Shown: piece after piece, positions 1 to 14,174 of the stretch | Layout of the letters: each line of letters begins with the position of its first letter | How positions within the stretch are numbered: the first letter of the stretch is position 1 | DNA from: Akkermansia sp. | GTDB taxonomy: Bacteria; Verrucomicrobiota; Verrucomicrobiia; Verrucomicrobiales; Akkermansiaceae | Length of the DNA: 45,438 nucleotides | Assembly (NCBI GenBank): GCA_024405415.1 | Contig: JAKSOV010000007.1 | Location: 1-45,438, forward strand | Direction: 5' to 3' | Position numbers and translations under genes: made by a program | Notes under the pieces: model-generated | The model's input: the letters and a program-made list of their open reading frames with translations, nothing else | Told to the model about the DNA's origin: nothing | The model's database searches: none

Positions 1-128
1 CCCCCCCCCCCCCCCCCCCCCCGCAAACAAGGAAAAAGGGGAAAGAAAAAAGAAAAAAAACAAAAAAGGAAAGTGGGGGCGCCCCGCCCCCCTTCTTTCC
101 CTTTCCCCCCCCCCCCCCCCCCCCCCCC
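1..128. repeat. Low-complexity poly-C and poly-purine stretch
   Basis: Positions 1-22 are all C and 105-128 are all C, with an A/G-rich stretch and a short GC-rich palindrome between them. No reading frame or RNA gene is visible. The complement would be long G runs able to form quadruplexes, but this kind of sequence at a window edge is also typical of a contig-end assembly artefact. It should not be treated as biology without read support. Confidence 0.6.
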
Positions 129-235
129 TGTCTCGGCGTAGGCAAAGACGAAGACAGATGGGCGTTTTGAGGGAAAAATGTAAGCCACGCGGGGCTGCCC
201 TGGCTGGGCTTGTGGAGCGCCTTAAGTAAAAAATA

Positions 236-286
236 TTGACTATTTTGTCCCATTTTGTTGACTTTTTGTCCCTAATAGAGTAGTAT
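236..286 (+). promoter_or_regulatory. Promoter of ietAS with a 22-bp spaced direct repeat
   Basis: TTGACT at 258-263, a 17-bp spacer and TAGTAT at 281-286 make a good sigma-70 type promoter, with transcription expected near 293 and a leader of about 23 nt before the ATG at 316. The -35 box is part of a direct repeat: TTGACTATTTTGTCCC (236-251) and TTGACTTTTTGTCCC (258-272), offset by 22 bp, about two helical turns. This could be an operator or a duplicated -35 region. Confidence 0.6.
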
Positions 287-315
287 CATAACACGCCTAG
301 CTTACCTCTCGTGCC

Positions 316-1347
316 ATGAAAAAGAAAGATGTTTTGAACTTAATTAGAAGTCATGTCGAACAAAATGATGTGGCGTTTAGAAATGCTGCGTACGTTATCG
401 CAGATGATTTTAAGGCAAATGGTGACATGGTGTTATCTGACTATATTAATGCGTTGATGTCAGATGCTAATGCTTTTGTTCCTCAAAGTTATATGGAACA
501 ACTTGAATTCGTTGAGCCTGTCATGGTTGATAGAAAACCGCTGTTTTTGCCAAACTCAATACATGAGGACATTGTCGGCTTATTAAATGCTTTAAATTAC
601 AATTCCGGCATTCACAAAATTTTATTTCATGGCTCTCCTGGCACTGGTAAAACAGAGACTGCGAAAAATTTAGCGCGCATTTTAAAGCGAGATTTATATA
701 TCGTTAAGTTCTCCTTGCTTATTGATAGCAAGTTGGGGCAGACTCAGAAAAATATTGTCGAGCTTTTTGATGAACTGGCGAATATGAGACAGCCTCAAGA
801 TGTTATTATTCTTTTTGATGAGATTGATGCAATAGCCCTTGATAGAACAAATTCAAGGGATATTAGAGAAATGGGGCGCGTGACTTCTACAATTTTAAAG
901 TCGTTGGACGAACTGAATGATAAGGTTATTCTCATCGCAACAACAAATCTGTTTTCTTGCTTTGATAGGGCATTGGTGCGCCGTTTTGATGCCGTCATAG
1001 ATTTTGATCGTTACGAGATGGAGGATATTTTGGAAATTGCGGAGCGCATATGTGGTGATTACCTCGCACGTGAGCCTAAATTGGGTAGAAATATGCGTTT
1101 GTTGAGAAAAATTGTTAATAAAATGAGCACTCCGCTTTCTCCAGCTGAGTTGGAAAATGCCATCAAGGTGGCAATAGGTTTTAGTAACAAAGAGAATAAG
1201 TTTGAATATTTGCAGAAACTTTTTAATAGAATCGTCTCGGTTGAGAGCAAAGACTATGCAGCAATGAAAGAAATGGGATTTACTCTAAGGGATATTGAAA
1301 TTTTGACAGGCGATTCCAAAAGTAAAGTCGGGAGGGAGTTGAAGTGA
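316..1347 (+). CDS. ietA: AAA+ ATPase of an IetAS-type defence pair
   Basis: This 343-residue protein is an AAA+ ATPase. Walker A is GSPGTGKT at residues 106-113, Walker B ends in LFDE (D168, E169), and an arginine-finger-like RRFD lies at 222-225. The first 100 residues are not recognised and may sense a target or partner. The stop codon overlaps the start of a subtilisin-like protease by one base. An AAA ATPase followed by a subtilase is the layout of IetAS, described first as a plasmid stability and incompatibility module and later as an anti-phage system. The ATPase presumably restrains or directs the protease; that is inference. The gene is clearly AT-richer than the core genes downstream of 10398, suggesting horizontal transfer. 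Confidence 0.78.
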   Translation: MKKKDVLNLIRSHVEQNDVAFRNAAYVIADDFKANGDMVLSDYINALMSDANAFVPQSYMEQLEFVEPVMVDRKPLFLPNSIHEDIVGLLNALNYNSGIHKILFHGSPGTGKTETAKNLARILKRDLYIVKFSLLIDSKLGQTQKNIVELFDELANMRQPQDVIILFDEIDAIALDRTNSRDIREMGRVTSTILKSLDELNDKVILIATTNLFSCFDRALVRRFDAVIDFDRYEMEDILEIAERICGDYLAREPKLGRNMRLLRKIVNKMSTPLSPAELENAIKVAIGFSNKENKFEYLQKLFNRIVSVESKDYAAMKEMGFTLRDIEILTGDSKSKVGRELK

Positions 1348-3608
1348 TGAGTAAGAGAAATAAAATTTTTACATTGGAGGGAAGATTGAGGCCTAAAGGT
1401 GCTCCCTTGGGGCGTCAACCATCCACTTTGCCTGAAAATGAGCGCATATCCTCACAGCACGTCCGTAGTCTGGCAGATATGTTGAAGTCTGTTTTGCAAA
1501 CGTGGGAAAAGAAGTCTTTGATTAATGGGGCTCTTATATCGGTTAAATATGATTGCGTTATAGCCAAGAGTAAAAGAGTTAGTGCGCTGTTTAAAGTAGA
1601 TTCGAGCAGTTCCTCTAACGATTCGATTCGTGGGGCAAAATTTATATATGATGAAAATGGTCCCAAGCACTTAATTACCCACTTTGTTCCGCTTTCTGTC
1701 CTGCGCGCGAATGTAGGCGAATTGTATATTACCGCTGATTACATCGATGAATTTGCAAATGGGGTTATCGATAAAAGTGCGCTTGGACGTTTGAGAATGA
1801 GAAATAAGTTCACATATCATAACTTGACTAAAAGCAAATTAATTAATTTGATTCTTGATACTCGTAGAGTAGAATCTTTTTATGTCGATTCTACTACATC
1901 TCCCGTTGATGGAGATTCTATTGTAACAATCTATCAGACAGGTAAAACTACCGATGAAATTTTGAAGTCTCTCGGAATTGATGCATGTAAGGTGAGAAAA
2001 TTGGATGAGACGACATTGCTCCTTTCTGCTCTTCAGTTGGAAAAAATGCAGAGTGAGGCACCATATCTTATTGCTATGCAAGTTCAAGATTTGGCTGAGC
2101 TCGAAGCGGAGTCGGAGGAAGACTATACATCAAAAGATGAAATGACCATCGAGGAACCGACAAATGAGCCAGTTGTAGGGGTTATTGATACTCTGTTCTA
2201 TGAGGAGGTTTATTTTAAAAAATGGGTGTCATTTGAATCATGTATCCATAAAGATATTCCTATTGAGTATAGAGATTATGTTCATGGAACGTGTGTGACA
2301 TCTCTTATCGTGGACGGCCCTAAACTTAATCCAAAATTAGAGGATGGGTGTGGCCATTTTAGAGTAAGGCATTTTGGAGTGGCTAAAGCTGGGCGATATA
2401 GTTCTTTCGAAATCCTAAAATCGATTAAACGTATTGTTGAGGAAAATAGAGACATTAAGGTATGGAACCTTTCGCTTGGTTCCGTCATGGAGATTCAGCG
2501 AAACTATATTTCGCCAATTGCTGCAGAATTAGACCGTCTTCAAGTAGATTGCGATGTTATTTTTGTAGTGGCGGGAACAAACAAAGAAAGGGTAAACGAT
2601 GAAAGTACCATGCGAATTGGTGCCCCAGCGGACTCATTAAATGCTCTTGTTGTCAATTCTGTTAATACTTGCGGAGCTCCTGCCGAGTACACGCGTGTTG
2701 GTCCTGTCCTTTCTTTCTTCCATAAGCCAGATGTAAGCTATTATGGTGGCACTCGGGATGAAAAGATGGAGACATATAGTCCGTATGGGCGAATGAGGCA
2801 AATGGGAACCTCTTTTGCAGCTCCTTGGATAACCAGAAAGTTGGCTTACCTCATTCACAAGATGCATCTGAGCAAGGAGGTGGCAAAAGCCCTGATAGTT
2901 GACTCCGCTGCTGGTTGGAGAATTAACTATGGGCGGATTAATGAGAAAGGGTATGGGGTGGTACCTATCCGTATATCCGATGTGCTTTCAACTTCTTCTG
3001 ATGAGATAAAGTTCATTTTTTCTGGTCGGACTTCTGCGTATGAGACATATACATACGATATTCCTGTGCCTGTAGCTGCGTTGGGCTACCCATATATTGC
3101 AAGGGCTACTTTGGCATATTCTCCGCAGTGTTCGAGAAATCAGGGTGTGGATTATACCAATACTGAGTTGGACGTACATTTTGGACCTGTGAAAGCAGGC
3201 CGCACCGGCAATCCTTGCATTGAGTCGGTCGATGATAATCATCAGGATGACCCAGAGGAGAAATGTCTATATGAAGGTAAAGCCCGAGAATATTATAGAA
3301 AATGGGATAATGTGAAGTGTATTTGCGATAAGACTACAGGGGAGTTTAGTCACAAGAAGTTCAGAAAAGATTATCTATGGGGAATGAGCCTGAAAATGAA
3401 AGAACGCTTAACTTCTGGAGAAAGACTCCCCCTTCCTTTTGCTGTTGTTGTTACATTGAAGGAAATTCGAGGTCGGAATAATTATGAAAAATTCGTGCAG
3501 CTGTGTCGCTTGAGAGGTTGGAATGTGAATGAAATCGATATTGATTTGAATAATCAGCTCTACCTTGAAGAAGAGGAAGATCTGGTGCTGGAGAGTGAGG
3601 ATATTTAA
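1347..3608 (+). CDS. ietS: Subtilisin-like serine protease of an IetAS-type defence pair
   Basis: This protein of about 753 residues carries the S8 catalytic triad in the usual order: Asp in GVIDTLF (D281), His in YVHGTC (H313) and Ser in GTSFAAP (S489). No signal peptide is visible, so it should act in the cytoplasm, unlike most subtilases. The first 280 and last 200 residues are unrecognised, and the C-terminus is acidic. The ATG at 1347 is preferred because GGAGGGAG at 1331-1338 lies 8 nt upstream; a GTG at 1344 in the same frame is possible. The one-base overlap with ietA implies translational coupling. In the IetAS model the protease is the toxic effector and the ATPase its control. An intact triad suggests it is active. 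Confidence 0.78.
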   Translation: MSKRNKIFTLEGRLRPKGAPLGRQPSTLPENERISSQHVRSLADMLKSVLQTWEKKSLINGALISVKYDCVIAKSKRVSALFKVDSSSSSNDSIRGAKFIYDENGPKHLITHFVPLSVLRANVGELYITADYIDEFANGVIDKSALGRLRMRNKFTYHNLTKSKLINLILDTRRVESFYVDSTTSPVDGDSIVTIYQTGKTTDEILKSLGIDACKVRKLDETTLLLSALQLEKMQSEAPYLIAMQVQDLAELEAESEEDYTSKDEMTIEEPTNEPVVGVIDTLFYEEVYFKKWVSFESCIHKDIPIEYRDYVHGTCVTSLIVDGPKLNPKLEDGCGHFRVRHFGVAKAGRYSSFEILKSIKRIVEENRDIKVWNLSLGSVMEIQRNYISPIAAELDRLQVDCDVIFVVAGTNKERVNDESTMRIGAPADSLNALVVNSVNTCGAPAEYTRVGPVLSFFHKPDVSYYGGTRDEKMETYSPYGRMRQMGTSFAAPWITRKLAYLIHKMHLSKEVAKALIVDSAAGWRINYGRINEKGYGVVPIRISDVLSTSSDEIKFIFSGRTSAYETYTYDIPVPVAALGYPYIARATLAYSPQCSRNQGVDYTNTELDVHFGPVKAGRTGNPCIESVDDNHQDDPEEKCLYEGKAREYYRKWDNVKCICDKTTGEFSHKKFRKDYLWGMSLKMKERLTSGERLPLPFAVVVTLKEIRGRNNYEKFVQLCRLRGWNVNEIDIDLNNQLYLEEEEDLVLESEDI

Positions 3609-3634
3609 GATTTTAACACGCTAGGGCTTTCTGC

Positions 3635-3663
3635 TTGTCGGAAAGGGAAAAATTTGCTATAAG
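3635..3663 (+). promoter_or_regulatory. Leaderless-type promoter of the type III mod gene
   Basis: TTGTCG (3635-3640), a 17-bp spacer and TATAAG (3658-3663) lie so that only 6 nt separate the -10 box from the ATG at 3670. Transcription would begin at or next to the start codon, giving a leaderless mRNA. No Shine-Dalgarno sequence is visible. Confidence 0.55.
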
Positions 3664-3669
3664 AACATC

Positions 3670-5199
3670 ATGCCTATCCTGCATTGGTTAAACCGAGATG
3701 AGTCTCTGACTATTGCTGACAAAACGCCTTATCGGGTGCTTGAAGAGGTGCCGTCATTGTCCAGAGGTGAGGTGGGTACGCAGAATATGCTGGTACAGGG
3801 GGATAACCTTGACGCGCTGAAGTCGTTGCTGCCGTATTATGCGGGGCAGGTGAAGTGTATCTACATTGACCCGCCGTACAATACGGGGCATGCGTTTGAG
3901 CATTATGATGACAATGTGGAACATTCTACATGGTTGTCTCTGATGGTGCCGCGGCTGACTCTACTTCGTGATTTTTTGTCGGAGGAAGGTTCTATATGGA
4001 TATCGTTGGATGATGACGAATTTCACTATGTGAAAGTTGTTTGTGACGAAATTTTTGGGAGAAACAATTTTGTGGCTACGAATATCTGGCAGAAGAGAAC
4101 ATCTCCTGATATGAGAGCATCGTTGAGCGATGCGCACGAGTATGTGTTAACGTATGCTAGGAATAAAGCTGCATTTAAATCGGCTATCAATAAATTGCCT
4201 CTTAGTGAGGAGCATGAAAAGAATTTTAAGAATCCAGACAATGACCCGCACGGGCCATGGACTTCAACCGATTATACAGCGCAGGGATATCGTCCGAATC
4301 AGATGTATGAAATCGTGACCCCATCTGGTGCAGTATATACTCCTCCAACTGGTAAATGCTGGAAGAATATTGAATCTGTTTATTTGGCTCAAAAAGCTGA
4401 GGGCCGTTTTTGGTTCGGGCGTGATGGCTCTGCTATGCCCCGGCGCAAAACGTATTTGTCTGAACGTGAAGGTTTGGTGCCGTGGACATGGTGGACGAAT
4501 AAAGAAGTTGGACATTATCAGGAGTCGAAGAAAGAAATTGTTGCCTTGTTTGGGGTGGATAATGTTTTTGAAACTCCCAAACCTGAGCGTCTTATTAAAC
4601 GAATTATTGAATTGTCAACAAACTCTGGCGATTTGGTAATGGACTCCTTCCTTGGTTCAGGTACTACCGCAGCGGTGGCGCACAAAATGGGGCGTCAATA
4701 CATCGGTATTGAGATGGGCGACCATGCGGTGACGCATTGTGTTCCCCGCTTGGAAAAGGTCATTGAGGGTGAGCAAGGCGGTATTTCTAAGAGTGTCGGT
4801 TGGCAGGGTGGCGGAGGCTTCCGTTTCTACCGCTTGGGTGAAACTGTGTTTGATGAGTATGGGGAGATTAATCCCGATATTTCATTTGAAGCCTTGGCTT
4901 CCCATATTTGGTTTACGGAAACATACCAGCCCCGACAGCTTGGCGCACCTCTTTCAACGTGTTTGGGTGTGCATCAGCGCACAGCGTTCAGCCTCTTGTA
5001 CAATGGTGTGCTGAAAGATAGAAGTGTGTCCGGCGGTAATGTACTGACTCGTAAAACGCTCTCGATTATTTTGGAGGATATCGGTGAAGCCGAGTATGAT
5101 AAAATCGTGGTTTACGGGGAAAGTTGCCGATTGAGCCCCGCAACGCTGCAAGAATATCGCATCGTTTTCAAACAAACGCCGTATGATGTGCGGTCTTAA
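3670..5199 (+). CDS. mod: Type III restriction-modification methyltransferase (Mod)
   Basis: This 509-residue DNA adenine N6-methyltransferase has the beta-class order: catalytic DPPY at residues 67-70 (in IDPPYNTG) comes before the SAM-binding motif FLGSGTT at 327-333. The stretch between them, with many aromatic residues, should hold the target-recognition domain. It would methylate one strand of a short asymmetric site and serve as the specificity subunit for Res, encoded 12 nt downstream. At 509 residues it is somewhat shorter than many Mod proteins (about 600-650). No phase-variable simple repeat is visible in the gene. The recognition site cannot be read from the sequence. Confidence 0.9.
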   Translation: MPILHWLNRDESLTIADKTPYRVLEEVPSLSRGEVGTQNMLVQGDNLDALKSLLPYYAGQVKCIYIDPPYNTGHAFEHYDDNVEHSTWLSLMVPRLTLLRDFLSEEGSIWISLDDDEFHYVKVVCDEIFGRNNFVATNIWQKRTSPDMRASLSDAHEYVLTYARNKAAFKSAINKLPLSEEHEKNFKNPDNDPHGPWTSTDYTAQGYRPNQMYEIVTPSGAVYTPPTGKCWKNIESVYLAQKAEGRFWFGRDGSAMPRRKTYLSEREGLVPWTWWTNKEVGHYQESKKEIVALFGVDNVFETPKPERLIKRIIELSTNSGDLVMDSFLGSGTTAAVAHKMGRQYIGIEMGDHAVTHCVPRLEKVIEGEQGGISKSVGWQGGGGFRFYRLGETVFDEYGEINPDISFEALASHIWFTETYQPRQLGAPLSTCLGVHQRTAFSLLYNGVLKDRSVSGGNVLTRKTLSIILEDIGEAEYDKIVVYGESCRLSPATLQEYRIVFKQTPYDVRS

Positions 5200-5211
5200 T
5201 CCTTTTCTGCC

Positions 5212-7836
5212 ATGCAACTGAAAACTTACCAGCAAGAAGTTTTGGAAACGTTGAAGCGTTTCTTTACTTTGGCGCGTCTAAAAGATCATGAGACCGCATA
5301 CGACGAAATTACCGCAGAGCCTGATTTGAAAGCTCGACTCGGTAAGTTTCGCCACTATGATACATGGGCAAGTATTGCGGATGTGCCGCGTGTTTGTGTG
5401 AAAGTGCCGACCGGTGGCGGTAAAACAATCTTGGCCGCGCACGCTATTCGTGTGGCTGCGGAAACATGGATGGATGAGGAATATCCCATTGTTTTGTGGT
5501 TTACCCCATCGGACACGATTCGCAAGCAGACGGCGCATGCGTTGCAGAATCCTCGCCACCCCTACAGAAAGGCCTTGGATGAACAGTTCGGGGGAAGAGT
5601 GCGCGTGTATGATATTGACGAAAAATTCCAAATTACCCCGCAGGATATTCGCGAGCATTTGTGCATTGTCGTGTCTACTGTACAATCGTTCAAACAGTCG
5701 GACACTGGGAAATACAATGTGTACAAGCACAATGAAAACTTGGAGAGTCACTTCACCCATATTCAGGTGACTCCCCAAATGGAAAGGGATGAGAAGGGGA
5801 ATGTGAAGTTTTCTTTCGCTAACCTCCTGATGGCGCATCGTCCTCTCATGGTGATGGACGAGGCTCATAATGCCGTTACCAACTTGTCCGAGGTGATGCA
5901 GGCAAGATTGTATCCCTCCGCTATCATTGAGCTTACCGCTACGCCGCGTTTGAGAAATAACACGTTGTACAATGTGTTTGCCTATGAGCTCAAACAGGAG
6001 GCCATGATTAAGCTGCCCGTCATGCTGGTCGAGCATGAGGATTGGTCGCAGTGCGTGGTGCAGTCTGTCGCTAAACAGGCTGAACTGGAGCAAATGGCCG
6101 CACACGAGCGGGATTACATTCGCCCGATTGTGCTTTTCCAAGCTCAGGCGCGCGGCGCGGAGGATGCCGTGACGTGTGATGTCCTGAAAAGCTATCTGAC
6201 GGATGAGCTGGGGATTCCCGAGAATCAGATTGCCGTGGCAACGGGCGAACAGCATGAGCTGGATGATGTTGATATGTTTGACCGCTCGTGTCCCATTCGC
6301 TATGTCATCACAGTACAGGCTTTGAAGGAGGGCTGGGATTGCTCATTTGCCTATGTGCTTTGTTCTGTTGCCAACTTGAAGAGCGCGACAGCTATTGAAC
6401 AGCTCTTGGGTCGCGTGCTGCGTATGCCCTATGCACAGGCGCGCAAGGAAGATGCGCTGAATCGTTCCTACGCATTTGTGAAATCTAAGCATTTCGGCGA
6501 AGCCGCAGAAGAACTGGTGGCTCGTCTGAAACAGGGCGGCTTTGAGGATTCGACGGCAGAAGATGCTGTCGTGGAGCAAAAGCCTGTGGAGGATTTGCCC
6601 TTGTTCCGTTCTGTCACAACGGTGACGATTGAACAGGAGGATGGCGAGGGGGATTTGGTGTTGGCTGATGCGGATATACCTGCTTCCATCATCGTGACAG
6701 AGGAAGAAAACGGCGCAACTTCGTATACGTTCACCAAAGAAACAACGGAAGCTGATGTGGAGAAGCTGTGTTCCGTGCATACATCGGAGCAGGCCAAGGC
6801 TAAAATCAAGCAGGGATTCCAAGTGTACCGCAAGGCATACACCGCAGTTCACCCGGAGCCTGTGCAGTCTCCTGCTGCCGTCGGACAGGAGTTCTCCGTC
6901 CCCCGACTCATGGTGAATGTTCAGGGTGAGCTGTTCCCTGCTGAAACTGATGCCCTTTTTGAACGCTGTGAGTGGGATTTTGCCGAATGGGTGTCTTGCC
7001 AGCTTTCGGAAGAAGAGTTCAATATCGTCACAGAAGGTAATGCTTTCCGCGTTGATGTGGAAGGGCAGACGGTGAAGTATACGATTGCCGCTCAGCCTGA
7101 TTATTTGCCCGGTTATGAGAGCGAGCCGTTCACGCCGGAGATGCTGACGAAGTGGCTTGTCCGCAAGGTGAAGCAAGATGATGTCTCACACTCTGTGTTG
7201 CTGCGTTGGGTTTCTGACGCAGTGCATTATCTGACTGTATCGCGCTCCTTGCCGATGGAAGGCTTGTATTTGAACCGCTTCCGCATTATGGACAGGCTAC
7301 TCGCCCATATCAAGGAGGGGCGAAATAAAGCCAAGGCTCAATGCCACCAAATGCTGTTCAATGACATGGAGGATGTGCAGGTGTTTGCTGGTGCAGAATT
7401 GAAATTCTTTGAGTCCATGTACGATGGCGAGAGTTTTTTCAAAGGCTCTTACCAGTTCTCAAAGCATTACACGGGGCCGAACAAAGTACCGGCTTTCGAT
7501 GGTAACGAGGGCGAGGAGTTCCGCTGCGCTCAATATCTGGATGCCATGCCGGAGGTGAAATACTGGATTCGCAATGTCGCCAAGCACCCGCATTCATTCT
7601 GGCTACCGCTCGCGCATGCCCGCTTCTATCCCGATTTCATTGCACAGCTCACGGATGGCCGTATCTTTGTTGTGGAATACAAGGGTTCCCACCTTGCCGG
7701 CAATCAGGATAGTGCCGAGAAACGCCTCATCGGTGAACTCTGGGCGAAGAAGAGTGGTAACATTTTCCTGATGGCTGAGAAAACAAAGAATGGATTGAAT
7801 ACGCAGCAGCAGTTGAGGAAGTTTATGAGTCTGTGA
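5212..7836 (+). CDS. res: Type III restriction endonuclease subunit (Res)
   Basis: This 874-residue protein couples an SF2 helicase-like motor to a C-terminal nuclease. Walker A is PTGGGKT (66-72), the DEAH box is D216-H219, and a motif VI-like QLLGRVLRMP follows in the second RecA domain. Near the C-terminus, YPDF (D808) followed by VVEYK (E822, K824) fits a PD-(D/E)XK nuclease core. Res needs Mod for DNA recognition and cuts after ATP-dependent communication between two inversely oriented unmethylated sites. It follows mod by 12 nt, so the two are co-transcribed. All key motifs look intact, so the system is probably functional. Confidence 0.9.
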   Translation: MQLKTYQQEVLETLKRFFTLARLKDHETAYDEITAEPDLKARLGKFRHYDTWASIADVPRVCVKVPTGGGKTILAAHAIRVAAETWMDEEYPIVLWFTPSDTIRKQTAHALQNPRHPYRKALDEQFGGRVRVYDIDEKFQITPQDIREHLCIVVSTVQSFKQSDTGKYNVYKHNENLESHFTHIQVTPQMERDEKGNVKFSFANLLMAHRPLMVMDEAHNAVTNLSEVMQARLYPSAIIELTATPRLRNNTLYNVFAYELKQEAMIKLPVMLVEHEDWSQCVVQSVAKQAELEQMAAHERDYIRPIVLFQAQARGAEDAVTCDVLKSYLTDELGIPENQIAVATGEQHELDDVDMFDRSCPIRYVITVQALKEGWDCSFAYVLCSVANLKSATAIEQLLGRVLRMPYAQARKEDALNRSYAFVKSKHFGEAAEELVARLKQGGFEDSTAEDAVVEQKPVEDLPLFRSVTTVTIEQEDGEGDLVLADADIPASIIVTEEENGATSYTFTKETTEADVEKLCSVHTSEQAKAKIKQGFQVYRKAYTAVHPEPVQSPAAVGQEFSVPRLMVNVQGELFPAETDALFERCEWDFAEWVSCQLSEEEFNIVTEGNAFRVDVEGQTVKYTIAAQPDYLPGYESEPFTPEMLTKWLVRKVKQDDVSHSVLLRWVSDAVHYLTVSRSLPMEGLYLNRFRIMDRLLAHIKEGRNKAKAQCHQMLFNDMEDVQVFAGAELKFFESMYDGESFFKGSYQFSKHYTGPNKVPAFDGNEGEEFRCAQYLDAMPEVKYWIRNVAKHPHSFWLPLAHARFYPDFIAQLTDGRIFVVEYKGSHLAGNQDSAEKRLIGELWAKKSGNIFLMAEKTKNGLNTQQQLRKFMSL

Positions 7837-7877
7837 TTGATTGTGTTTGTTATTGTATTACAAAATAATAATGTTTG

Positions 7878-8801
7878 ATGTTTGTTGTCCAAATTGGTAT
7901 GGTGGCAAACATGTCATTAGTTGATGATTTGTCTGGTTTAGCATTGGAGAGATTTAGCGAGGCTGATGTTGCTATGGCACCTGGTCGGTCTTGCGCAGGC
8001 GTAAGTTTGGAATCGTGCTTGAGTTGCTTAAAACATGTGCATTTTGGTGACGCCCACCAGCAAAAATATTGGTGTAATAAGATGATAGATCTGTATGTGC
8101 CACAGTTCATATATGCATATGCTAGTGAAATTTATTATGCATTAGAAAAATTATATTGCGGACATGCTCCAACACAAATCAAAGTTGTTTCTATTGGTTG
8201 TGGCGCTGCCCCGGATTTGTTGGCATTAGAGAAAATGAATAGTGAGAAGAACATTGGGTTTGAATATATTGGCATTGATTTAAACGAATACTGGGAACCA
8301 TATCATAGAGTAATTAATGATTCATCACTGAATGCATGTGTGTATCACGCAGATATTTGCTCTTTGAGTGAGAGCTTACAGGAGCAGCTTAAATCATGTG
8401 ACTTGCTAATACTACAGTATTTCTTATCTGCAGTATTCGATAAAGTAACAAGGCGTGTCCCTGAGGAGATTATAAATGCTATATATAAGTCTGTTGTTCA
8501 TTATATGCCTGAAGGCTCCGCTGTCATAGTTAACGATTTGAACAGCGATTATATGGGAAGACCACAATGGGATGCGATATTTTCATGTGATGGGGTGAAT
8601 CGAACTTTCCAACGAGAGGACTTTTGTTTTGATAAGAAGTCTGCAAATGGTTATACTCCTTATGGGAAGGTCTTGAAGCATTACCCTCATGCTTTTTGGA
8701 CTTCTCCTATACCTGTCTGCTTTAATATTTCTGATGCCGTTAAGTCTCGATTTGACCCTCACATGTATTGTAGAAGTTGTTTTTCCCTCTATAGAATATG
8801 A
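7878..8801 (+). CDS. SAM-dependent methyltransferase-like protein paired with a DUF1848 protein
   Basis: The protein has about 307 residues. A glycine-rich SAM-binding motif SIGCGAAPD (G107-C108-G109) is followed by GIDLNEY with an acidic residue (D134) at the end of strand 2, as in class I methyltransferases. The N-terminal 80 residues contain several cysteines (SCAGVSLESCLSCL), and the C-terminus ends in YCRSCFSLYRI, a possible metal site. No DNA methyltransferase motif such as DPPY is present, so the substrate may be RNA, protein or a small molecule. The ATG at 7878 is favoured by a TAATAA box at 7866-7871, 6 nt upstream; ATGs at 7899 and 7911 are alternatives. The stop overlaps the next start by 4 nt (ATGA), showing tight coupling. 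It is AT-rich like the rest of the island. Confidence 0.6.
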   Translation: MFVVQIGMVANMSLVDDLSGLALERFSEADVAMAPGRSCAGVSLESCLSCLKHVHFGDAHQQKYWCNKMIDLYVPQFIYAYASEIYYALEKLYCGHAPTQIKVVSIGCGAAPDLLALEKMNSEKNIGFEYIGIDLNEYWEPYHRVINDSSLNACVYHADICSLSESLQEQLKSCDLLILQYFLSAVFDKVTRRVPEEIINAIYKSVVHYMPEGSAVIVNDLNSDYMGRPQWDAIFSCDGVNRTFQREDFCFDKKSANGYTPYGKVLKHYPHAFWTSPIPVCFNISDAVKSRFDPHMYCRSCFSLYRI

Positions 8802-9730
8802 TTATTAGCGCTAGTCGTAGAACTGACATTCCAGCTTTCTTTTCAGAATGGTTCTTGAAAAGAATTGAGGAGGGATATCTGTGCGTTAGAAATCCGATGA
8901 ATGCGCATCAGGTGAGTAGAATTGATATTTCTCCTGATGTCGCTGATGCTATTGTCTTCTGGAGCAAAAATCCAGAGCCCTTATTATCCTGCTTGGAACA
9001 GTTGCGCGAGTATACGTATTACTTTCAGTTTACTCTGAATGGATATGGATGGGAAATTGAAAAGAATGTTCCATCTCTTGATGACCGTATAGATACATTC
9101 CGAACATTATCAAAACTTATCGGTAGGGAAAGGGTGATATGGAGATATGACCCGATTTTTCTGAACGAACGATTTGGTCTTTCGTGGCATCACGAGTGTT
9201 TTTCTTATATCGCAGAGCAGCTTCATGGATATACAGACCGATGTGTCATGAGCTTTGTTGACTTATACCCTCGCATTGGCAAAAATATTCAAGGCCTCGA
9301 TATCGCAGAGCCGGAGGCTCAGCTAATATATGCTCTTGCCGAGTCTTTTGCTAAGGTCGCAAAAGCGCGTTCGATACGATTGTTCACCTGTGCGGAACTT
9401 ATCGACCTCGCTTCATATGGAATCGAACATTCGCATTGCATTGATGCAGAACTGATTTCAGAGTTTCTAGGAGCAAAATTGAATGTTCAGAAAGATAAAA
9501 TGCAGCGAGCTGTTTGTGGGTGCGTTTCGAGTATTGACATCGGAGCATATAACACCTGCCGTCATGGCTGCGCTTATTGCTATGCGAATCACAGTCTGAC
9601 GACGGTTCAAAAGAATAAGGAATTACATGACCCTGATTCACCCTTGCTTATCGGAAATATAGGCGAAGGGGATATCGTAACTGAACGTAAGGTAAAGAGT
9701 CTTATTACAAAACAAGGAGAGTTGTTTTAA
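8798..9730 (+). CDS. DUF1848 family protein with a radical-SAM-like cysteine motif
   Basis: This 310-residue protein begins ISASRRTDIPAFFSEWF, the signature of DUF1848. The family has no established function known to me. Near the C-terminus are C240 and C242, then C254-X3-C258-X2-C261 (CRHGCAYC), the spacing of a radical-SAM 4Fe-4S cluster but unusually late in the chain. The central part contains barrel-like stretches such as WRYDPIFL. The start overlaps the methyltransferase stop in ATGA, so the two proteins are made together and probably work on one pathway. A strong hairpin follows at 9804-9840. A role as a metal-dependent modifying or repair enzyme is only inference. Confidence 0.72.
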   Translation: MIISASRRTDIPAFFSEWFLKRIEEGYLCVRNPMNAHQVSRIDISPDVADAIVFWSKNPEPLLSCLEQLREYTYYFQFTLNGYGWEIEKNVPSLDDRIDTFRTLSKLIGRERVIWRYDPIFLNERFGLSWHHECFSYIAEQLHGYTDRCVMSFVDLYPRIGKNIQGLDIAEPEAQLIYALAESFAKVAKARSIRLFTCAELIDLASYGIEHSHCIDAELISEFLGAKLNVQKDKMQRAVCGCVSSIDIGAYNTCRHGCAYCYANHSLTTVQKNKELHDPDSPLLIGNIGEGDIVTERKVKSLITKQGELF

Positions 9731-9803
9731 AGAAGTCCTCTCAAATAAAAAAGATTGAGGTAACTGATTTCTCAAGATTTTTATTTGGACGAATTGTCAA
9801 ATA

Positions 9804-9840
9804 CAAGGAAGCACCAAACATATAGTTTGGTGCTTCCTTG
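9804..9840. terminator. Perfect 16-bp hairpin between converging genes
   Basis: CAAGGAAGCACCAAAC (9804-9819) is repeated exactly in inverted form at 9825-9840 around the loop ATATA. It lies between the DUF1848 gene and the converging HNH gene, so it is a good candidate for a bidirectional terminator, although no long U run follows on either strand. Confidence 0.6.
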
Positions 9841-9854
9841 AGCTAAAAATTGGT

Positions 9855-10241
9855 TTATATGTTGTACAAAGCCTTTAATTTAGTTTGAAGAGATTCGGGA
9901 ATTGTTCGTGTAGACGTTTCATTTATATTTTTGTTCCCCTCGCTTGTTTTGACGGCTGTATATCTGGGGTAATCGTTATCTTTTGAATTGTTGTTTTCCC
10001 AATGCATTGGTCTTAAATTGGCCATTTCGTTCCATTTGCTTTGCGGAATGTTCTTCTCTTGCAATTTATCTATAGGGTAAACGTGGTCGATTTCCCACCC
10101 GTACTCGGAACTTCTGTTCCCGTATTCTGTACGGCATATCCATGCATCGCAAAAATCTTTTCTCCATACATCCTTATCGCAACCGGATACTTCCCTTCCT
10201 TTTTCCCAAACAGATTGTATTTTTGAGGTCGTGAAACTCAT
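9855..10241 (-). CDS. Small HNH endonuclease
   Basis: The protein has 128 residues from the ATG at 10241; an in-frame TTG at 10298 would add 19 residues and is less likely. The HNH core is visible as EIDHVYP (D52, H53), then ANLRPMHW (N75), then ENNNSKDN (N83-N85). No zinc-binding CXXC pairs frame the motif. It would bind one divalent metal and nick or cut DNA, or possibly RNA. It faces the defence genes and is AT-rich like them, so it probably came with the island. Whether it is a stand-alone defence nuclease, a homing-type nuclease or a partner of the neighbouring pair cannot be decided. Confidence 0.75.
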   Translation of the reverse strand: MSFTTSKIQSVWEKGREVSGCDKDVWRKDFCDAWICRTEYGNRSSEYGWEIDHVYPIDKLQEKNIPQSKWNEMANLRPMHWENNNSKDNDYPRYTAVKTSEGNKNINETSTRTIPESLQTKLKALYNI

Positions 10242-10397
10242 AATTCTAAAAAAGTATATTGACTTTTTTATGATGGATGCGGATTCGATTTCTTTCAATA
10301 CAAATTATGCGTATTGCGTATAACGAAAACGATAAAACTCCCACTAGCTATTTCATTCATTCATGCGCGATGCCTTTTTATAATTGGCATTGTACAT

Positions 10398-13300
10398 TCA
10401 CTTGAGCGTTTCCTCTGCTGCCTGAAGTTTCTTGACGGAGGCGCGCCCTTTTTGGGCTAATGCCGGAGCAAAGATGGAGAGACGATACTCGGAGAGGAGA
10501 AGTCCGTAGGAAAGCCAAGCGGAATTCGTGAGGTGGCGAAGGTATCCGCCTTCGCTGGGGCTATGGAGTGTCGTGCTTCCGCCGCCGCCAAGGCTATGGC
10601 GTGACAAGGGGGGATAGAAGTCGGGGGCGATAGCGGCGTGGAGGGTGGTGATGCGTTCGAGTTCGCGGGCGGCGGGTTGTTGGCGGAGACGGGAGAGGCG
10701 GTCTTGGAGACCGCGGAGGAAGCGGGAGAGGTCCGTTATGCCGTCCGCGGATACGGCGGTGTGGGTAGACAGAAAATTTTCGCGCGTCAGGTAGTGCCAG
10801 TCGGCGAGGAGGTCGTCGGCAATGGCGGCGGCGTAGCGGTCGGTGGAGGCGGTGACGCAGTAGGTGCGGACGGCGGCGTCGGTGACGGATAGTTGTTCCC
10901 AGAGCTTTTGGAGGGGCCCGGAGAGGGTGTCGTAGACGCGCTCGCGGATGCGGAGACAGGCGGTGTCGAAGTCCGCGGCGGTGCGGGGCAGGGTGGGACC
11001 GAGGGCCAGGAGAATGGCCGCATCCAGCGTGTCGCGGACGTTGTTTTTGGGGGCTGCACCGATGGTCGTCATCGCGAGCTTCGCTTCCATGCTCGTGATG
11101 GGGAGACGCTTGCGGATGCCGTTGATAAAATCCCCGTGGCGCAGGAGGAAGAGACGGCGGATGCCGCAGCGGTGGGTGAAGAGTGCTTCCTCTCGCGTGG
11201 GGCAGACGCGGATTTTCACCGCGCGGTCGCCGTCCTCCGCAAGGGCGGGGTAGCCCGTGCCGTTGCCCACGTCCACTTCCTCCGGCAGGTCGCCGCAGTC
11301 CCAGCGGGTCATGGGGGTGGAAGAGAAAACTTTTTTCGCCTTCTTTTGGAAACGCTTTTGTTGGTAGCCCGCCAGCTTCTCGCGCAGGGCGGCGGCATCC
11401 GTGCCGAGGGCCAGCTCGTCCCCCGCGTCATCGCAGACCCAGATTTTGGTGATATACTCGGGCGGCAGCTTGCTCCACTCAAACTGATCCGCGTTGCAGA
11501 ATTTTTGTGTGCGCTCGCGGACGAACTCCGCCAAGGCGCGGTCCAGCGGGCGGTCGGGCTCGCGGTCGTACCACAGCTCAAAGAAATCCGCCGCGGTCTC
11601 GGAGATGGGCATGAGGAAGGCGCGCAAGTCCTTCGGGAGCGTGCGGAGCAGCATCTCCACGCGCGTGGTGAGCCACGCGGGCACACCCCATTGCGGGAGC
11701 CAGTCGGGGAAGTCCGCCAGCTGGTCGATGTGGACACCGAGGGTCGCGCCGTCATCCGCTTCGTTGGGAGCGTGGTTGTAGTACACGGGGTACTCCTGCC
11801 CCGCGACGGTGATTTCATCCGGGTAGAGGTCGGCGGGGGTGTCGTCCTCCCCGGGGTAGATGCAGTCCTCGTAAGGTATCTCCAGCAGGTGCGGGTCGGC
11901 TTTCTCCGCCTTGTCGCGCCACAAGCGCAACAGTTTTTCGGAATTGATGTCGCGGGGGATGCGCTCGTCGAAGAAGCGGTAGACGGCGGGCTCGCACCAG
12001 ATGAGGTCGCGGCGGCGCAACTTGTTCTCGGCGGTGCGGACTTGCTCCCGCATGTCGGCGAGGTGCGCCAAGAAGGGCGGGGTGTCGCGCAGCTGCATAG
12101 CCATGATGCCGTCGCGTATCATGATGTCGCGCGCGCCCTCGGGGTTGTAGCGGGCGTAGCTCACGCGGCGACCGTCCACGAGCGTGAGCCCGCCGCAGGT
12201 GACGCGCTCCTTGGCGTAGACCACGCCCGCGGCTTTATCCCACGCGGCATCGTACGCATGGTGCGCGCAGAGCTGCGGGGCGATTTGCTCCACCCAAGCG
12301 GGGTCCAGCACGGCGGCGCGGCGCATGTAGAGGCGGGAGGTTTCCACCAGCTCCGCGCCCATGAGCCAGTCCGGGCGTTTGCGGCGGCGGAAGAGCCCGC
12401 TGCCGGGGAAAATCGCAAAATCGCGCCCGCCCGCGCCGCGGTACACTTTTTCTTCTGACCGCCAAAAACCGATTTGCAGAGGGGCACCCGCCAGCAGGGC
12501 GCGGTGGATGCGCTCGGGCGTGGCCTGCTCCGCCTCGGGGGGCAGCTCCTCTATCTTCCAGCGCATGGTGTCGCGCAGGGCGTTGTCGAGGTCTTGGACG
12601 AGGTTGTGCCACTCGATGATGCGGAGGAAAGAGATATAATTTTTGCTGCACCACTTGCGGAGCTGGTTGCGGCGCAGGTTGCGGCGGTCGCGGAACTCCA
12701 GCGTGGCGCGCCACAGGGAGAGTAGGGAGAGGAAGTCGCTCTCCTCGTTCTTCCATTGGGCGTGCGCTTGGTCCGCCTGTGCGGCGGCGTCGCTCGGGCG
12801 TTCGCGCGGGTCCATGATGCTCAGCCCCGCCACGATGACGAGCAGCTCGGGCAGGGCGCGCTCTTTCTCCGCCGCGAGCAGCATGCGGCCGAAGCGCGGG
12901 TCCAGCGGCAGGCGGGCGAGTTGGCGGCCGATGTCCGTGAGGCGTTTATGCTTGTCGATGGCACCGATTTCGCGCAGGGTCTTGTAGCCCTCGTTGATGA
13001 GGCGGGGGCTGGGCGGGTCCGGCAGGGGGAACTCCGCGGGCGGGGGCAGACGCAAATCCGCCATACGCAGGATGACGCCCGCGAGCGCGCTGCGCTTGAT
13101 TTCGGGGTCGGTGTAGGCATCGCGGCTCTCGAAGTCCGCTTCGGAGTACAGGCGGATGCAGACACCCTCCGTCACACGGCCGCAACGCCCCGCGCGCTGG
13201 CGGGCGCTGGCCTGCGAGATGGGCTCGATTTGCAGCCGCTGGATTTGCCGCCCCGGCAGGTAGCGCGAGAGACGCGCGAGCCCGCTGTCGATGACGTAGA

Positions 13301-14174
13301 TGATGCCGGGGATGGTGAGGGAGGTTTCCGCCACGTTGGTGGCGAGCACGATGCGCCGCCGCCCTTTCTGCGGGTGGAAGATGCGCTGCTGCTCGCCCAG
13401 CCCGAGCCGCGCGAAGAGGGGCAGGATGTCGGTTTTCGGGAGGTCGAGGGCGGAGAGCTCGTCCGCGCAGTCGCGGATTTCGCGCTCGCCCGGCAGGAAG
13501 ACGAGGACATCGCCGCGCGCATCGTACTCCGAGAGCCACTGCACGGCGCGGGAGACGTGCGCGGGCAGGTCCTCATCATCGTTGCGCGGAGGCATGTAGT
13601 GCATGTCCACGTGGTAGGTGCGCCCCTCGACGTTGATGACGGGCGCGCCGACGAAGAAGTCCGAGAAGGAGCCCGCATCCATGGTGGCGGAGGAGATGAT
13701 GAGCTTGAGGTCGCGGCGGCGCGCGAGCAGCAGCTTCATGTAGCCGAGCAGGAAGTCGATGTTGAGGCTACGCTCATGGGCTTCATCGAGGATGATGGTG
13801 TGGTACTGCCGCAGGTCGCGGTCGTTCTGCGTCTCGGCGAGCAGAATACCGTCCGTCATGAGCTTGAGCTTGGTGTCGGGCCCCGTGCGGTCATCGAAGC
13901 GGACTTGGTAGCCCACATAGCCGCCGGGCTCGCAGCCGACTTCCTCCGCAATGCGCTTGGCGACCGCCACGGCGGCGAGTCGGCGCGGCTGGGTACACCC
14001 CAGTTTGCCCCGCCGCTCCCCCGCGACCTCCAACGCGATTTTCGGCAACTGCGTCGTCTTGCCGCTGCCCGTCTCACCCACGACCACGACCACCTGATTG
14101 TGGCGAAGCGCGTCCGCGATTTCTCGCCTGTGGCGAGAAATCGGCAAATCAGGATAAGTGAATTGGGGAGCCAT
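10398..14174 (-). CDS. hrpA: HrpA-type DEAH-box ATP-dependent RNA helicase
   Basis: This 1258-residue protein matches full-length HrpA. Walker A is GETGSGKT (33-40), the DEAH box is D130-H133, RAGRCGRV is motif VI, and the long C-terminal region typical of bacterial HrpA follows. HrpA is an SF2 helicase acting on structured RNA or mRNA-ribosome complexes. It marks the left border of the GC-rich core after the AT-rich island. Around residues 1187-1218 (10520-10613) is a low-complexity stretch (SLGGGGSTTLHS) whose DNA resembles an intergenic repeat seen elsewhere in the window, so a repeat seems to have been absorbed in frame; the conserved end (LLLSEYRLSIFA) resumes after it. Repeat element A begins 6 nt upstream of the ATG. 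Confidence 0.92.
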   Translation of the reverse strand: MAPQFTYPDLPISRHRREIADALRHNQVVVVVGETGSGKTTQLPKIALEVAGERRGKLGCTQPRRLAAVAVAKRIAEEVGCEPGGYVGYQVRFDDRTGPDTKLKLMTDGILLAETQNDRDLRQYHTIILDEAHERSLNIDFLLGYMKLLLARRRDLKLIISSATMDAGSFSDFFVGAPVINVEGRTYHVDMHYMPPRNDDEDLPAHVSRAVQWLSEYDARGDVLVFLPGEREIRDCADELSALDLPKTDILPLFARLGLGEQQRIFHPQKGRRRIVLATNVAETSLTIPGIIYVIDSGLARLSRYLPGRQIQRLQIEPISQASARQRAGRCGRVTEGVCIRLYSEADFESRDAYTDPEIKRSALAGVILRMADLRLPPPAEFPLPDPPSPRLINEGYKTLREIGAIDKHKRLTDIGRQLARLPLDPRFGRMLLAAEKERALPELLVIVAGLSIMDPRERPSDAAAQADQAHAQWKNEESDFLSLLSLWRATLEFRDRRNLRRNQLRKWCSKNYISFLRIIEWHNLVQDLDNALRDTMRWKIEELPPEAEQATPERIHRALLAGAPLQIGFWRSEEKVYRGAGGRDFAIFPGSGLFRRRKRPDWLMGAELVETSRLYMRRAAVLDPAWVEQIAPQLCAHHAYDAAWDKAAGVVYAKERVTCGGLTLVDGRRVSYARYNPEGARDIMIRDGIMAMQLRDTPPFLAHLADMREQVRTAENKLRRRDLIWCEPAVYRFFDERIPRDINSEKLLRLWRDKAEKADPHLLEIPYEDCIYPGEDDTPADLYPDEITVAGQEYPVYYNHAPNEADDGATLGVHIDQLADFPDWLPQWGVPAWLTTRVEMLLRTLPKDLRAFLMPISETAADFFELWYDREPDRPLDRALAEFVRERTQKFCNADQFEWSKLPPEYITKIWVCDDAGDELALGTDAAALREKLAGYQQKRFQKKAKKVFSSTPMTRWDCGDLPEEVDVGNGTGYPALAEDGDRAVKIRVCPTREEALFTHRCGIRRLFLLRHGDFINGIRKRLPITSMEAKLAMTTIGAAPKNNVRDTLDAAILLALGPTLPRTAADFDTACLRIRERVYDTLSGPLQKLWEQLSVTDAAVRTYCVTASTDRYAAAIADDLLADWHYLTRENFLSTHTAVSADGITDLSRFLRGLQDRLSRLRQQPAARELERITTLHAAIAPDFYPPLSRHSLGGGGSTTLHSPSEGGYLRHLTNSAWLSYGLLLSEYRLSIFAPALAQKGRASVKKLQAAEETLK

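Follow-up and report, generated by a model that had tools for sequence, protein, structure and literature searches.

DUF1848 proteins appear in the PADLOC defence catalogue under DRT, as the model RTasDUF1848, where they stand alone or, to judge by the model name, with reverse transcriptases, and not with a methyltransferase. Another PADLOC entry, C3a159 ('methyl transferase'), has no DUF1848 partner; we take its name to denote an accessory of type III CRISPR (clustered regularly interspaced short palindromic repeats) systems. The PADLOC paper (PMC8565338) did not settle the meaning of this name. The mitoribosome assembly factors METTL17 and Rsm22 have a methyltransferase fold that bears cysteines; METTL17 is described as binding a [4Fe-4S] cluster and rRNA (PMC11046306), and Rsm22 proteins as having an OB fold and a loop of cysteines that binds metal (PMC8171064). 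The radical S-adenosylmethionine (SAM) superfamily, with MqnE, PFL-activase, HydE, RlmN and Cfr, shares a barrel fold and a CX3CX2C motif with DUF1848; the motif is N-terminal in those enzymes and C-terminal in DUF1848, as a circular permutation would produce. Prokaryotic viperins are radical-SAM enzymes in antiviral defence and, to our knowledge, they are neither permuted nor accompanied by a methyltransferase. Here we describe two adjacent genes, at positions 7878 to 9730 of a 45,438-nucleotide stretch of DNA from Akkermansia sp. (contig JAKSOV010000007.1, hereafter the window), which encode a methyltransferase-like protein and a DUF1848 protein. We propose, with a probability of roughly 45%, that the pair is a mobile two-enzyme SAM/radical-SAM module, probably modifying RNA, that has been recruited to defence. 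An earlier note on this DNA held that neither protein has a known role; this has to be amended, since PADLOC models exist for both halves, as separate candidate entries. A literature search, mainly of titles and abstract openings, returned nothing on DUF1848 by name and nothing on the pair. New are the unit itself, the apparently swappable methyltransferase, the predicted permuted radical-SAM fold and the link to METTL17/Rsm22.

The second gene of the pair (8798..9730, plus strand) encodes a protein of 310 amino acids (aa) that belongs to DUF1848 over its full length: residues 2-263 align to positions 1-262 of the 262 positions of PF08902 (353.4 bits against a gathering threshold of 30.5; E 1.3e-105), and RTasDUF1848 matches with E 8.5e-52. 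Cysteines are found at positions 29, 65, 134, 149, 198, 214, 240, 242, 254, 258 and 261, of which seven (C198, C214, C240, C242, C254, C258 and C261) are conserved without exception across all 36 aligned DUF1848 proteins. The earlier note had correctly picked out C240, C242 and the CX3CX2C motif formed by C254, C258 and C261 near the C terminus; C198 and C214 are to be added. That note had also suggested iron-sulfur chemistry and the prediction of a cluster-binding barrel, and the structure model (predicted local distance difference test, pLDDT, 93.0; predicted template modelling score, pTM, 0.91) is indeed a radical-SAM barrel with iron-sulfur-type cysteines. Among the matches listed in the Protein Data Bank (PDB), the 15 best are without exception radical-SAM enzymes (Z 10.3-7.7, 162-196 residues), including MqnE (Z 10.3 over 194 residues, root-mean-square deviation (rmsd) 3.4), PFL-activase (8.8), HydE (8.7), RlmN (8.6) and Cfr (7.7); the margin is modest, because unrelated TIM barrels come next in the ranking, at Z 7.6 and below. 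The counterpart of residue 1 of the DUF1848 protein is near residue 71 in PFL-activase, 119 in MqnE and 171 in RlmN, positions that presumably lie past the CX3CX2C loop of these three enzymes. The radical-SAM family PF04055 reaches 15.4 bits, below its gathering threshold of 29.5, with no stretch of DUF1848 other than residues 251-275 matching it, at profile positions 4-26; a permuted protein would be expected to miss this threshold. Because the fold starts past the usual loop, the motif lies at 254/258/261 and residues 251-275 match the start of the profile, DUF1848 is probably a circularly permuted radical-SAM barrel whose CX3CX2C loop has moved to the C terminus. The other invariant cysteines, C198, C214, C240 and C242, may form a second metal site.

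The first gene (7878..8801, plus strand) encodes a class I methyltransferase-like protein of 307 aa, counted from the ATG at 7878; a TTG at 7875 is a possible alternative start. No strong Pfam or NCBIfam family was found for it, the PF03291 match (E 0.002) being weak and below the cut-off. PADLOC C3a159 matches with E 7.9e-9 and is the only PADLOC family matched in the methyltransferase alignment, by 23 of 27 members. The structure model (pLDDT 82.1) shows a predicted Rossmann-like fold with the SAM motif SIGCGAAPD (G107, G109) and the acidic residue D134 after strand 2; both glycines, and D or E at 134, are present in all 27 alignment rows. The class I SAM fold and the cysteines reported in the earlier note are thereby confirmed at the level of the model and the alignment, with C39, C47, C50 and C66, near the N terminus, invariant in all 21 cysteine-type rows of the 27. 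Among the listed PDB fold matches, the top six are METTL17/Rsm22 (Z 18.2-15.2; alignments of 241-249 residues that begin at residue 11 or 12 of the window protein), the best having Z 18.2, rmsd 3.6 and 8% identity over 241 aligned residues; other methyltransferases follow from Z 14.2. The first four PDB rows are titled human mitochondrial small-subunit intermediates, and we take the chain to be METTL17 from the matching Rsm22 rows. A viral fold library returned generic methyltransferases, and PDB profile searches with the methyltransferase and DUF1848 alignments gave repeat-protein or marginal matches only. In a profile comparison with true Rsm22, the family aligned over the Rossmann core only (probability 87.8). 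Rsm22/METTL17 proteins combine a cysteine cluster after the methyltransferase fold with an OB fold, whereas the invariant cysteines here are N-terminal and the APCxH..CP motif is absent from the main family. Both proteins of the pair may contain metal.

The two genes share the sequence ATGA at 8798..8801 on the plus strand, with the TGA stop of the methyltransferase gene at 8799-8801 and the ATG start of the DUF1848 gene at 8798. This overlap, already described in the earlier note and borne out by the coordinates of the open reading frames (ORFs), probably couples the translation of the two genes. An alignment search with DUF1848 gave the 80 nearest named genome loci and 32 viral-contig loci, the latter with the alignment query, a single-sequence viral scan having been unsuccessful; an iterated profile built from the window methyltransferase gave 38 family ORFs. 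In 23 of the 80 named loci a gene of the methyltransferase family immediately precedes DUF1848, with gaps of -4 to +15 bp; two further loci (L057 and L074) have one nearby, and nine have less than 800 bp of upstream DNA. Among the 32 viral-contig loci, seven are directly paired (some of them near-copies), two have the family nearby, two are uninformative and 21 are unpaired, and the seven plasmid or phage records comprise two direct pairs, one locus (L034) with a convergent family gene and four with none. Two phage-labelled faecal scaffolds carry the closest DUF1848 proteins (51-53%), and in both a methyltransferase-like gene stands immediately before DUF1848. As the coupled pair recurs so widely, its occurrence goes beyond chance. 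The recurrent pairing near defence genes for which the earlier note proposed to survey DUF1848 neighbourhoods does exist, although most DUF1848 genes are unpaired. That note would have given up its suggestion if DUF1848 were usually alone in ordinary contexts and the pair occurred only here: the former holds, but the latter is false, because paired named, viral-contig and plasmid or phage loci were found.

From the methyltransferase side, a single-sequence search found no relative in genome contigs, plasmids or viral contigs, and matched two of 288 genomes of the phylum, one its own and the other weakly; an alignment search of 194 genomes of the window's phylum returned the window genome and one generic weak match. 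Among 247 genomes of the phylum to which the L109 genome belongs, eight of nine matches were weak (1e-7 to 1e-4) and were set aside as generic methyltransferase domains. The family is present in all 18 genomes of paired loci and in none of the eight genomes of unpaired loci. It matched 11 of 398 genomes from the phylum of the L041 genome; two matches (G514 and G782) were rejected as generic methyltransferases, and in seven of the other nine (G387, G590, G591, G616, G756, G689 and G713) DUF1848 adjoins the methyltransferase. The remaining two, intact in G564 and in fragments in G735, have no DUF1848 next door. DUF1848 itself occurs in 90 of 299 genomes of that phylum and in 56 of 387 genomes of the window's phylum. 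Genome counts from both sides show, then, that DUF1848 is common and the methyltransferase rare, and that in these samples the latter usually adjoins DUF1848. In a DUF1848 tree of 149 rows, the 38 paired rows need 23 state changes against a shuffled mean of 34, which means that pairing is clustered on the tree yet often gained and lost. G591 and G564 each contain several DUF1848 copies that are broken, which suggests a rapid turnover.

The DUF1848 proteins of L071 and L038 are 92% identical, whereas their methyltransferases belong to different subtypes and are 25% identical over part of their length. Because nearly identical DUF1848 proteins are found with different methyltransferases, the methyltransferase appears to be an exchangeable specificity subunit, with DUF1848 as the constant enzyme. 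The second-subtype methyltransferase of L083 appears truncated by stops. In L050 and L065 a different, Rsm22-like methyltransferase lies directly upstream of DUF1848; this partner matches the Rsm22 profile with probability 96.6 and E 4.9e-10 over 252 columns, and its SPC motif aligns with the APC motif of Rsm22. In genome G497 a true Rsm22 gene is convergent with DUF1848 at a distance of 23 bp (L192, 1366-2328 on the plus and 2352-3296 on the minus strand), the only one of three strong Rsm22 loci with DUF1848 beside it, none being seen at the other two. Taken together, the fold match, the Rsm22-like partner of L050 and L065 and the Rsm22 neighbour in G497 are several lines that point to a METTL17/Rsm22-type companion for DUF1848.

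Other genes also stand close to members of the two families. In L050 (436-2058) and L065 (4831-6627), the genes for the Rsm22-like methyltransferase and DUF1848 are preceded by a gene of similar size in both loci (541 and 599 aa); the N-termini of these two products look alike by eye, and a three-gene system is possible. In viral contigs (L131 and L132, 7540-8004; L133, 4919-5389), DUF1848 shares a 4-bp overlap with a different gene, which encodes about 155 aa including a cysteine motif and is another partner candidate. AlkB-type 2-oxoglutarate-Fe(II) oxygenase genes lie directly beside methyltransferase-family genes in L034 (8864-9547, minus strand) and L198 (2169-2792, plus strand), perhaps as a third partner; the L198 neighbour, one of the eight weak matches mentioned above, is a helicase ORF with a generic methyltransferase domain. 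On a Roseburia plasmid (L035, 5322-7942), DUF1848 comes directly after ADP-ribose hydrolase and Sir2-type genes. In the window's own genus, L011 (440-2792) has a divergent DUF1848 of the MIINTGGRTD type in an overlapping row with two genes that we label by eye, an upstream one as MarR-regulator-like and the other as a second radical-SAM-like gene.

The surroundings of the paired copies are rich in defence and mobile genes. In L182, a type III-B CRISPR locus, the pair is flanked by a CRISPR array on one side and by cmr1, Cas10/Cmr2, cmr3 and more cmr-like genes on the other, the last gene being a CARF-type Cas_APE2256. Three other loci are III-A-like: in L183 and L187 the pair is followed by Csx1 (CARF-HEPN), arrays and Csm1/Cas10, the L187 methyltransferase being broken, and in L186 a RAMP gene and arrays come before the pair, with Csx1 further on. 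Restriction-modification (R-M) genes adjoin other copies. The pair is preceded by hsdR of a type I R-M operon in L126 and by a type II methyltransferase gene in L109, and in L038 type II/IIG methylases, a ResIII helicase and a large STAND-like gene are near it. RmrT is found near the pair in L066 and AbiH in L071, and the context of L074 includes MkoC (Mokosh) and SIR2. Two proteins carry additional domains: the L128 methyltransferase (6569-7999, plus strand), directly before DUF1848, has an RnlA-toxin-like N-terminal stretch (residues 91-162, E 1.1e-5), and in L057 (4116-7472, plus strand) a superfamily 1 helicase (AAA_11/AAA_12) of 1118 aa, directly downstream of DUF1848, has the methyltransferase-family domain in its C-terminal part. 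For a comparison of neighbours, 128 proteins of paired and 152 of unpaired loci were listed, and 122 of the former and the first 122 of the latter were used; the six omitted from the paired set come from L076, a locus of high G+C content whose ORFs are doubtful. The paired list includes L050 and L065, with their Rsm22-like partner, together with three viral loci, but not L057. Paired neighbours matched 189 PADLOC families and unpaired neighbours 34, a comparison that is crude because one protein can match many models and ABC-type matches inflate both lists. RmrA models match five, and RmrT models four, of the 122 paired neighbours. The Pfam families among paired neighbours include integrase, resolvase, recombinase, N6_Mtase and M78, and those among unpaired neighbours include ABC, GNAT, AraC and metabolic families. 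The two-component modification or defence module suggested in the earlier note is therefore upheld as far as a recurring, tightly coupled unit enriched beside defence and mobile genes is concerned.

Our proposal draws directly on the pairing, the close spacing, the context, the predicted folds and the invariant cysteines. It would work as follows. A cysteine-bearing class I methyltransferase of METTL17/Rsm22 type, translationally coupled to a circularly permuted radical-SAM DUF1848, would bind and select an RNA target and might methylate it. DUF1848 would cleave SAM by means of a [4Fe-4S] cluster on its C-terminal CX3CX2C motif, and would carry out radical chemistry on the same target, its four other invariant cysteines providing a second metal site. 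The pair would thus modify RNA (tRNA, rRNA or invader RNA) in two SAM-dependent steps, and would ride in defence islands as an add-on to R-M, type III CRISPR and other systems, directed against mobile elements. The benefit is probably protection against such elements, because the module is carried in defence islands and is added to varied systems. A narrower version, which we consider distinctly doubtful, is that an RNA-recognising, iron-sulfur-bearing METTL17/Rsm22-like subunit with at least two swappable subtypes directs the permuted radical-SAM enzyme to modify tRNA, rRNA or invader RNA; the module would serve in defence by itself and would also have an accessory role in type III CRISPR and R-M systems.

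A number of observations weigh against the proposal. The methyltransferase family is missing from 46 of the 80 nearest named DUF1848 loci, L050 and L065 among them, and no paired locus was found among 28 informative loci of the window's own phylum. At least 15 of the 23 pairing changes on the tree are forced by well-supported branches, and with partner gain and loss this frequent DUF1848 must also work alone or with something else. The paired methyltransferases of G689 and G713 are fragmentary, and several paired loci have ordinary neighbours (GMP synthase, ABC transporters, a TrmA-like gene). On the side of the protein, C47, C50 and C66 are absent from the five second-subtype rows and from the outlier L145, the cysteines are placed otherwise than in METTL17, and the Pfam Rsm22 family (PF09243) was not returned for the window protein at E 0.1. 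Fold resemblance is the sole pointer to RNA as the putative target, and METTL17 itself may not be an active methyltransferase, according to PMC11046306.

Four other explanations were considered. The radical-SAM fold of DUF1848 and the presence of the pair in type III CRISPR loci, which operate through nucleotide signals (SAM-AMP, PMC10600005), would also suit a viperin-like route. DUF1848 would then use radical chemistry to produce a modified nucleotide or signal, which the methyltransferase would complete or sense, and this product, as opposed to a modified RNA, would block the invader. We regard this as improbable, since the flanks examined lack a CRISPR array in many paired loci and the methyltransferase resembles the macromolecule-binding METTL17/Rsm22, not small-molecule enzymes. 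Neither more nor less probable is self-protection or repair, with the pair marking or mending host nucleic acid against neighbouring nucleases (R-M, HNH, Csx1). The pair does adjoin many different nuclease systems, and AlkB-family genes lie beside the methyltransferase-family genes of L034 and L198, but the systems beside it differ too much for a single cognate antidote, and there are also paired copies without a nuclease system nearby. A shade less credible still is hitchhiking, in which a pair with a metabolic or housekeeping function is simply carried along by mobile islands: DUF1848 is often found by itself in ordinary surroundings (90/299 genomes in one phylum sample), but defence models are much rarer among unpaired neighbours by the crude count of PADLOC families given above, and the pair is found inserted inside a type III-B locus and fused to effector-type domains. 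Least credible is a DNA modification module serving as an R-M add-on, for although the pair comes straight after R-M genes of type III in the window, of type I in L126 and of type II in L109, no DPPY/NPPY or cytosine-methylase motif was found in the methyltransferase family, which has QY or PK at the equivalent position, and the nearest fold is the RNA-linked METTL17/Rsm22.

In the window, positions 1-10400 form a low-GC island that holds an IetA/IetS system, a type III R-M system, the pair and a possible HNH gene. The G+C content ranges from about 0.38 to 0.54 over the first 10.4 kb and from 0.60 to 0.69 thereafter; the rise, from about 0.40 to 0.65, comes at an HrpA-like helicase gene (10398..14174, minus strand). 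This host core gene, named from our own reading of its sequence and not from a library, is present in 21 of 21 genomes of the genus and marks the right boundary of the island. The left end is cut by the contig end. Because low G+C content to the left of 10.4 kb gives way to high G+C content, the pair probably sits in an acquired island. From left to right on the plus strand, the island contains an IetA-like AAA ATPase (316..1347; PADLOC IetA 3.9e-43), an IetS-like subtilase (1344..3608; PADLOC IetS 2.5e-67), the type III R-M methyltransferase Mod (3670..5199; PF01555 9.2e-51, PADLOC MTase_III 8.5e-180) and the restriction subunit Res (5212..7836; PF04851 8e-15, PADLOC REase_III 3.8e-156), whose stop codon is 41 bp from the ATG of the methyltransferase gene of the pair. 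Convergent with DUF1848 is a possible HNH gene (9855..10298, minus strand). The placement of the pair between a type III system and an HNH nuclease, as given in the earlier note, is correct for the Mod and Res genes upstream, but the HNH label comes from a motif seen by eye; the protein matches no Pfam family and only weakly the PADLOC model HEC-05 (E 0.0013). A search of the window for CRISPR arrays found none, and no cas genes are among the window genes scanned with Pfam and PADLOC, which places this copy outside a type III CRISPR locus. A search for tRNA and Rfam RNA in the window found none either, and no reverse transcriptase was noticed in it, no systematic search having been made. As for an insertion hot-spot beside the HrpA-like gene, ten regions from other genomes of the genus (eight of them 10 kb) contain the island in no case, and their gene order differs.

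If the proposal is correct, two loose entries of the defence catalogue would be joined into one testable module, and the DUF1848 family would gain a functional handle. Bacterial immunity would gain a form of radical-SAM chemistry that works together with an RNA-binding methyltransferase fold. A link to a radical-SAM partner would also be made for bacterial relatives of the METTL17/Rsm22 fold, which could bear on the original role of this methyltransferase fold.

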